64,000 nucleotides of DNA from an uncultured Desulfobacterales bacterium (GTDB taxonomy: Bacteria; Desulfobacterota; Desulfobacteria; Desulfobacterales; JAHEIW01), in the NCBI GenBank assembly GCA_947259495.1, contig CAMYLV010000027.1:27984-91983 (forward strand), written 5' to 3'. A program made the translations under genes and the position numbers. Positions 9,391 to 10,490 of this stretch are shown one piece after another; the first letter of the stretch is position 1, and every line of letters begins with the position of its first letter. Below the pieces are notes generated by a model. That model did not search any database. It saw only the letters and a list, made by a program, of their open reading frames with translations, and had not been told where the DNA came from.

Positions 9391-9660
9391 CATAGCACTT
9401 TTTAAACTACTGATATGATACAAACTTCTTTAAATTATAATTTTTAATACACTCTGAATAAGCAGCAGTTGCGCTTCGAAAACGGGTGTTTGCAGCCCTA
9501 ATCATTCAAGTTTCACCCGGAAACAAATCAGCGGTTTAAGACACTATTCTTATCGGTCCAAACGGCTAAAATCTTTACCGGATTTTAGGCTTTCGAGTAT
9601 CAATTTTGCTCAATCTTGGATGTAATCGGTAAGGCAGGAAGGCAGGATCTCGATTAAGAA

Positions 9661-9690
9661 GGCTCAATCTATTCAGATTGAGCCCTTTTT
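9661..9690. terminator. rho-independent terminator-like hairpin beside the pseudo-tRNA
   Basis: GGCTCAATCT-ATTC-AGATTGAGCC-CTTTTT. Confidence 0.75.
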
Positions 9691-9694
9691 ATAG

Positions 9695-9773
9695 TGGCTC
9701 CCCAGTCCGCCGCAGGCGGAAACCGCGGACCCGGTGGTTAATCCGCCGCAGGCGGACTCGCCTACTGAGCTAC
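9695..9773 (-). pseudogene. degenerate tRNA-Asn copy with two palindrome replacements
   Basis: matches the intact tRNA except that two internal segments are TCCGCCTGCGGCGGA and the 5' acceptor strand is lost. Confidence 0.85.
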
Positions 9774-10030
9774 TTTTTCACAATCGTAGCTTTTATCCAT
9801 TCACGGCCTTGACCACTTTTCAGGAACCGCTCCCGGTTCATTGCTTCAGCGCGGGTGAGATATTCTTCAGAATAAATGAGTCGCCATGGTCCTTTTTGTT
9901 TGTGCGTATATCTCATTGATCCGGATTCGTCAGTGTTGTGACGCTCAATTCGTTTTTCCAGCTCTGAGGTATGACCCTTGTAAAGTTTGCCGGTCGTTTC
10001 GTTTTGAAGAATGTAAACCCAATATGTCAT
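9770..10030 (-). CDS. small GIY-YIG nuclease family protein
   Basis: MTYWVYILQNETTGKLYKGHTSELEKRIERHN; stop codon TAG lies in the pseudo-tRNA. Confidence 0.88.
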   Translation of the reverse strand: MTYWVYILQNETTGKLYKGHTSELEKRIERHNTDESGSMRYTHKQKGPWRLIYSEEYLTRAEAMNRERFLKSGQGREWIKATIVKK

Positions 10031-10050
10031 TTCAAACCAAATCCAATGTA

Positions 10051-10083
10051 AAAGGCTCAATCTCAGAAGATTGAGCCTTTTTT
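10051..10083. terminator. terminator downstream of tRNA-Asn
   Basis: AAAGGCTCAATCT-CAGA-AGATTGAGCCTTT plus T-run. Confidence 0.75.
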
Positions 10084-10087
10084 AAAG

Positions 10088-10163
10088 TGGCTCCCCAGCA
10101 CGGACTCGAACCGCGGACCCGGTGGTTAACAGCCACCTGCTCTGCCTACTGAGCTACTGGGGA
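10088..10163 (-). tRNA. tRNA-Asn (anticodon GTT), CCA encoded
   Basis: reverse complement TCCCCAGTAGCTCAGTAGGCAGAGCAGGTGGCTGTTAACCACCGGGTCCGCGGTTCGAGTCCGTGCTGGGGAGCCA folds as a cloverleaf. Confidence 0.95.
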
Positions 10164-10490
10164 ACATATTTATGAATAAAAGTTTACTCTAATTGATGTG
10201 TTTGTCCAGAACCCGGTGGTTAATCCGCCGCAGGCGGACTCTGCCTACTGAGCTACTGGGGAACATATTTATGAATAAAGCTACTGGGGAACATAATAAC
10301 GAATAAAAGTTTATGTAAATTACGATATTTGTCCAGAACCCGGTGGTTAATCCGCCACAGGCGGACTCTGCCTACTGAGCTACTGGGGAACATATTTATG
10401 AATAAAAGTTTACGTTAATTACAGTGTTTGTCCAGAACCCGGTGGTTAATCCGCCGCAGGCGGACTCTGCCTACTGAGCTACTGGGCATC
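10164..10490 (-). repeat. tandem array of three partial tRNA-Asn-derived units each carrying TCCGCC(T/G)GNGGCGGA-type palindromes
   Basis: acccggtggttaa + palindrome + ctctgcctactgagctactggg at 10211, 10338 and 10437, separated by similar gaacatatttatgaataaaagttta...tttgtccaga spacers. Confidence 0.9.

Follow-up and report, generated by a model that had tools for sequence, protein, structure and literature searches.

How do short palindromes come to stand in the place of the arms of a tRNA gene? The question is raised by an array of partial tRNA-Asn copies in the window, the whole stretch of 64,000 nucleotides from an uncultured Desulfobacterales bacterium analysed here. Along the minus strand, aspS is followed by three tandem 5'-half tRNA-Asn copies (10486-10211), an intact tRNA-Asn, a terminator-like hairpin, the gene of a GIY-YIG nuclease, a doubly swapped 3' copy, and a second terminator hairpin. 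The parts are as follows:

10437..10486, minus strand: 5'-half tRNA-Asn copy (gene positions 3-24 and 35-47); a palindrome at 10450-10464 replaces positions 25-34
10338..10389, minus strand: 5'-half tRNA-Asn copy (positions 1-24 and 35-47); palindrome at 10351-10365 with a TGT loop variant
10279..10290, minus strand: 12-nt 5' fragment of tRNA-Asn
10211..10262, minus strand: 5'-half tRNA-Asn copy (positions 1-24 and 35-47); palindrome at 10224-10238, followed by a spacer that looks like a promoter
10088..10163, minus strand: intact tRNA-Asn(GTT), the sole intact one found by ARAGORN
10046..10082, minus strand: intrinsic-terminator-like hairpin GGCTCAATCTTCTGAGATTGAGCC (minus-strand sense), stem-loop 10054-10077, after the intact tRNA
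9770..10030, minus strand: free-standing GIY-YIG nuclease gene, 86 aa plus stop (open reading frame open to 10060); catalytic Y6, Y17, R27, H31 and E67 conserved
9695..9774, minus strand: 3' tRNA-Asn copy with two palindromes, at 9742-9756 in the anticodon arm (positions 25-34) and at 9706-9720 in the T arm (positions 56-65)
9655..9690, minus strand: second copy of the terminator-like hairpin, stem-loop 9661-9684

The sequence-only reading of this locus had described 10-nt tRNA segments at two positions swapped for a palindrome, and the copy at 9695-9774 does read in this way: on the minus strand, ...GAG is followed by TCCGCCTGCGGCGGA, TTAACCACCGGGTCCGCGGTT, again TCCGCCTGCGGCGGA, and CTGGGGAGCCA. 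From this copy, the 5' acceptor strand is missing, as is a single base (GGCGAG instead of GGCAGAG), and its T-arm swap starts within GTT/CGAG of the T loop. Three further partial copies had been said to carry the swap at the anticodon-stem site, and gene positions 25-34 are indeed replaced in those at 10437-10486, 10338-10389 and 10211-10262. The segments replaced are, as had also been proposed, mostly hairpin arms, namely the anticodon and T arms. Together, five palindromes lie inside partial tRNA-Asn copies between 9695 and 10486, with 10 nt replaced at two tRNA positions. They had been called identical, which is true of four of the five but not of that at 10351-10365, TCCGCCTGTGGCGGA, which has a variant loop. 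As the three upstream copies are tandem repeats of each other, the window represents two independent swap positions rather than five events. Matches to the palindrome with up to 3 mismatches number 14 in the window against 2.6 expected, and none of 100 shuffles reached 14. The spacer between the tandem copies at 10163-10211 resembles a tRNA promoter (TGGACA, 16 nt, TAAACT); each tandem tRNA-Asn unit may carry its own promoter.

The sequence-only reading did not contain the GIY-YIG nuclease gene, the duplicated terminator, or the recurrence of the arrangement across phyla. The nuclease gene sits between the intact tRNA-Asn and the doubly swapped copy, with its stop codon abutting the first bases of the latter. 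The protein belongs to the GIY-YIG superfamily (Pfam PF01541, 9.3e-15) and has the catalytic Tyr, Tyr, Arg and Glu; its structure model has a pLDDT of 85. Its closest structure and profile matches are UPF0213 (6e-14) and the structure-specific nuclease SLX1 (8e-6). Ten residues are invariant across 40 sequences, the active site (Y6, Y17, R27, E67) included. The nuclease is under purifying selection, with a dN/dS of about 0.07-0.14 wherever dS could be measured. In-frame stops within the matched stretch of the nuclease were seen at two loci, L097 and L169. The gene in L097 (2501-2752) has two of these, and the adjoining downstream tRNA copy has collapsed to GAG, palindrome, CTGGG, which is the expected product of a deletion between the two palindromes of a copy like that in the window; this locus is apparently a decaying cassette.

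A full cassette is present in another genome of the same genus (G001), while in a second one (G002) a swapped 5' copy and the intact tRNA are left as a remnant from which the nuclease is absent. In this remnant, the tRNA-Asn unit (L041) is inverted relative to the window, between the same two neighbours, a PAS-kinase gene and aspS. With G001 occupied and G002 a remnant, no clean empty tRNA allele was found in the genus. Two genomes belong to other families of the order: in G019 the cassette is complete and another palindrome, TCCCGCCGGGGCGGGA, occupies precisely this tRNA position, and in G024 a truncated nuclease and the doubly swapped copy are all that is present. The genome of the window itself (G000) contains a second GIY-YIG gene (contig C15, 58206-58498; L032) after tRNA-Asp; the tRNA-Asp copy behind it carries TCCACCTGCGGCGGA in the T arm and is interrupted by an N gap. 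Dispersed 30- to 33-bp matches to the tRNA-plus-palindrome stretch of the window (query 92-124) occur on six contigs of G041 and are possibly mobile tRNA-hairpin fragments.

A single scan of the GTDB representative genomes with four seed proteins yielded 80 loci from about 15 phyla, including Planctomycetota, Bacteroidota, Nitrospirota, Patescibacteria and Chloroflexota. With the window, the G001 locus and the C15 gene, these make up a set of 83 loci. A tRNA gene lies within 230 nt of the nuclease gene in 68 of the 83, a fraction that describes this nuclease clade and not GIY-YIG genes in general, all seed proteins being tRNA-adjacent. The median distance is 40 nt, and the tRNA is on the same strand in 68 of 68 cases and on the opposite strand in none. 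Asn (24) and Asp (13) are the most frequent isotypes, followed by Val (7), Ser (5), Pro (5) and others. Extra partial copies of the same tRNA flank the nuclease gene in 66 of the 83 loci. The nuclease gene adjoins one intact tRNA, with 5' pieces of this tRNA upstream and 3' pieces plus a terminator downstream; the loci generally follow one of two arrangements, (5' pieces)-intact tRNA-nuclease-(3' piece) or (5' piece)-nuclease-intact tRNA. As a held-out check, 396 genomes of the phylum were searched later, and 153 had a match at E ≤1e-12. Among 28 previously unused loci, 18 were tRNA-adjacent (18/18 on the same strand), 15 had partial copies, and 6 had strict swaps. As a control, UPF0213/YhbQ-type GIY-YIG genes of the same order were inspected, of which 1 in about 18 was near a tRNA.

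Repeats in a draft genome could be misassembled into such an array, and the sequence-only reading had named this artefact as a point to check. The genome of the window is a draft of 69 contigs, and the end of a related contig falls within the array. The same architecture nevertheless recurs in independent assemblies, in chromosome-level records (L100, L143) and in the cultured isolate Barnesiella sp. An22 (L159), by which an assembly artefact, now highly improbable, is rejected.

In the extra tRNA pieces of these loci, a hairpin takes the place of an arm or interrupts it. A permissive search for two tRNA pieces parted by a short insert gave 82 cases in 50 loci. Among the 68 clean inserts, which came from 47 loci, a perfect stem of 6 bp or more is present in 51 (from 37 loci), whereas shuffled inserts predict 1.2, with a maximum of 6. 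By loci, the 5' half of the anticodon arm is affected in 18, the T arm in 9, the whole anticodon arm (about 17 nt) in 7, and other positions in 4, and 6 loci have a pure insertion. The repeated exchange of 10 for 15 nt that had been proposed is therefore real as a replacement but is not the only mode, as no bases were lost in these last 6 loci. Barnesiella sp. An22 has two such units; in one, the complete anticodon arm of tRNA-Met has given way to TCCCGATGCAGCATCGGGA, and the second has the variant TCCCGATACAGCATCGGGA. The copies in L249 have swaps in three different arms.

The sequence of the hairpin varies between genomes and even inside one locus, most hairpins having in common that they start with TCC and end with GGA. 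One fixed palindrome as the agent of the exchange, as had been suggested from the window, is not supported, because other genomes carry different hairpins at the same tRNA site (TCCCGATAAAATCGGGA in L112, GTCCGCGTGGTCCACGCGGAC in L111, and also TCCCGATGGTCATCGGGA). One mobile palindrome as the whole story was rejected on the same ground. The same-site swaps in tRNA-Asn copies could have been inherited with the cassette rather than have arisen in repeated events.

The swapped copies might act as RNA, either as tRNA-like decoys or as leader structures controlling the nuclease gene. They share the strand and promoter-like spacers with the tRNA, and their hairpin arms can still fold. Such a role is nonetheless quite improbable, as one acceptor strand, either 3' or 5', is missing from the copies, which vary in number and position and have hairpin loops that are not conserved.

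The nuclease lineages follow the tRNA isotype beyond the host phylum. On the nuclease tree, which is based on 89 columns and in which many forks are weak, the isotype changes 24 times against a mean of 35 when isotypes are shuffled within phyla, and none of 300 shuffles gave a value as low. One clade of tRNA-Asn nucleases spans Desulfobacterota, Nitrospirota, Hydrogenedentota, Fermentibacteria and Zixibacteria. Linkage to a specific target gene across hosts, a criterion for homing endonucleases, is seen here in this tracking of the isotype. The phylum is clustered within the isotype as well (23 vs 34), which indicates that inheritance is partly vertical.

These results also bear on passive decay, according to which tRNA loci are frequently duplicated, redundant copies gain hairpins by quasi-palindrome template switching, and the GIY-YIG gene is a hitch-hiker. 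Tandem copies do exist, and imperfect hairpins occur, for instance in the upstream copy of L099. Yet the swap is at the same position in many genomes, and the near-perfect stems are of foreign sequence and not derived from the flanks. The nuclease is, moreover, strictly tied to strand and isotype, and the tracking of isotypes is hard to reconcile with decay, which makes this an unlikely account.

Are the palindromes confined to tRNA genes? Genome-wide counts were obtained by pattern searches. That the palindrome would be dispersed had been anticipated, and TCCGCCNNNGGCGGA was found 55 times in the genome of the window, where the reversed-pattern control gave 0. It occurs 155 times in G001 and 72 times in G024, with zero matches in many relatives. 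Across 57 genomes, palindrome density (two patterns, from which the reversed control is subtracted) is correlated with the count of nuclease matches (rho 0.49, p 1e-4; kinship ignored). The median density is 12.3 per Mb in genomes with a nuclease match of at least 45 bits and 0.43 in those without. Dispersed hairpins of this kind are numerous in nuclease-bearing genomes. Palindromes are present without a detected nuclease in G004 and G011, and a nuclease is present without palindromes in G007 and G033. G011 contains 35 matches to the pattern TCCCGC...GCGGGA, nearly all of them TCCCGCCTGTGCGGGA, and no nuclease of this family was detected in it; the mobiliser may have been lost, be missing from the assembly, or be a different one. 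In G045, TCCCGC...GCGGGA hairpins are often paired at a distance of about 42-50 bp, which suggests a larger repeat with two hairpins.

Replacement was expected to recur elsewhere and does so in the same genome outside tRNA genes, in a dispersed repeat of about 130 bp (L206-L235) with 50 matches, some copies of which are empty and some occupied. At its first site, TAA/CGCAGCA/GATGG (empty) corresponds to TAA/TCCGCCTGAGGCGGACC/GATGG, and at the second, GAG/CGGCTCG/CGATGG (empty) corresponds to GAG/TCCGCCTCAGGCGGA/CGATGG. The comparison of empty and occupied copies shows replacement and not simple insertion outside tRNA genes too. The occupied copies may descend from few events, the direction from empty to occupied being presumed. 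The repeat has a strong inverted repeat, TTAAGGGCGAAGC...GCTTCGCCCTTAA, and some of its copies contain a 40-nt palindromic insert between CCTTAA and TAACGC.

The dispersed copies give room to another reading, in which what moves primarily is the short palindrome, mobilised by the GIY-YIG protein in the way that REP sequences are by RAYT; the mobiliser gene would be housed in the tRNA cassettes, and the dispersed palindromes would be non-autonomous copies. The correlation of palindrome load with nuclease content, the many loci with palindromes on both sides of the nuclease gene, and the replacement in a dispersed repeat far from tRNA genes all agree with it. It is a possible but doubtful explanation, since the hairpins differ within a locus and between genomes and have only the TCC...GGA ends in common, so that there is no single mobile sequence. 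In addition, the swaps beside the nuclease gene are mostly tRNA-specific, and several palindrome-rich genomes have no detected nuclease.

The REP/RAYT system shares with the present one the short dispersed palindromes, the abundance of which goes with a candidate enzyme gene that they flank. REPs are defined as GTAG- or CGTC-tagged palindromes of 20-40 bp (PMC3733652). The elements described here fall outside this group: the palindromes are of the TCC...GGA type, measure 11-21 bp and lack a GTAG or CGTC tag, the adjacent gene encodes a GIY-YIG enzyme and not an HUH Y1 transposase, target bases are replaced, and the target is a tRNA gene. Elements that integrate into tRNA genes by tyrosine recombinases likewise use a tRNA gene as target and keep an intact tRNA. 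They differ in that no integrase was found here in the open reading frames beside the array, the sole gene between the copies being that of the 86-aa nuclease; both 5' and 3' pieces are duplicated, and hairpins are swapped, and a tRNA-integrating genomic island was rejected. At 11-21 nt, the inserts are much too small to be group I introns. UPF0213/YhbQ and SLX1 proteins are the closest to the nuclease in sequence and fold, but UPF0213/YhbQ genes are not associated with tRNA genes in the same order, unlike the nuclease of the cassette. The rtT repeats of E. coli tyrT are tandem repeats that contain a piece of the neighbouring tRNA; in contrast to the cassette, they are not known to have a nuclease gene or a hairpin swap.

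SegB of phages T4 and T6 is a free-standing GIY-YIG homing endonuclease in a tRNA cluster, which cuts inside tRNA genes and causes tandem duplications of tRNA plus nuclease (PMC13096335). In both cases, a GIY-YIG nuclease is encoded beside tRNA genes. SegB is phage-borne and has a C-terminal region, whereas the present proteins are single-domain, chromosomal and UPF0213/SLX1-like, and hairpin-swapped tRNA copies are not reported for SegB in the sections of that paper compared here (PMC13096335). Short, mobile-looking palindromes also occur in fungal mitochondrial genomes with GIY-YIG homing endonucleases. Those are organellar, and no swap of a tRNA arm tied to a flanking nuclease gene was seen in the parts of the report considered (PMC7218506). 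Among open-licence PMC papers, no description was found of tRNA-linked GIY-YIG cassettes with hairpin-swapped copies.

The best explanation, to which a probability of roughly one half is given, is a mobile cassette that targets tRNA genes and has a free-standing, single-domain GIY-YIG nuclease at its centre. By analogy with SegB, the nuclease would cut tRNA genes in the anticodon or T arm, and recombinational repair would leave duplicated pieces of the tRNA around its gene, with one intact tRNA retained for the host to survive. At the broken, hairpin-forming arm, repair would put in a palindrome copied from another site; this substitution would destroy the cut site in the extra copies and so protect them. 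One objection to the cassette model is that the nuclease should attack the intact tRNA as well. Others are that the C-terminal extension of SegB is missing from the nuclease and that, among relatives of solved structure, those nearest to it are either structure-specific or uncharacterised. Genomes with mismatched palindrome and nuclease content, pure insertions beside replacements, and the lack of a nuclease homologue in the phage and plasmid records searched also count against the model.

The cassette looks like an undescribed selfish element aimed at tRNA genes. More tentatively, and with the odds somewhat against it, it may stand for a new class of selfish elements across bacterial phyla, in which an isotype-specific GIY-YIG nuclease invades tRNA genes and swaps the broken native stem-loop for a palindrome. 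The hairpin-for-hairpin exchange would then take place actively, on DNA and linked to an enzyme, and would also spread short palindromes throughout the genome. If the cassette model is right, the very short palindromic repeats of environmental bacteria, the origin of which is unexplained, would have a candidate enzyme for their spread and a natural target, and the mobile elements at tRNA genes would gain a class that does without integrase or recombinase. The exchange in place of one DNA stem-loop for another hairpin would become directly testable, and the model would account for the tRNA fragments, and for the small GIY-YIG genes next to tRNAs, that recur in annotated genomes.
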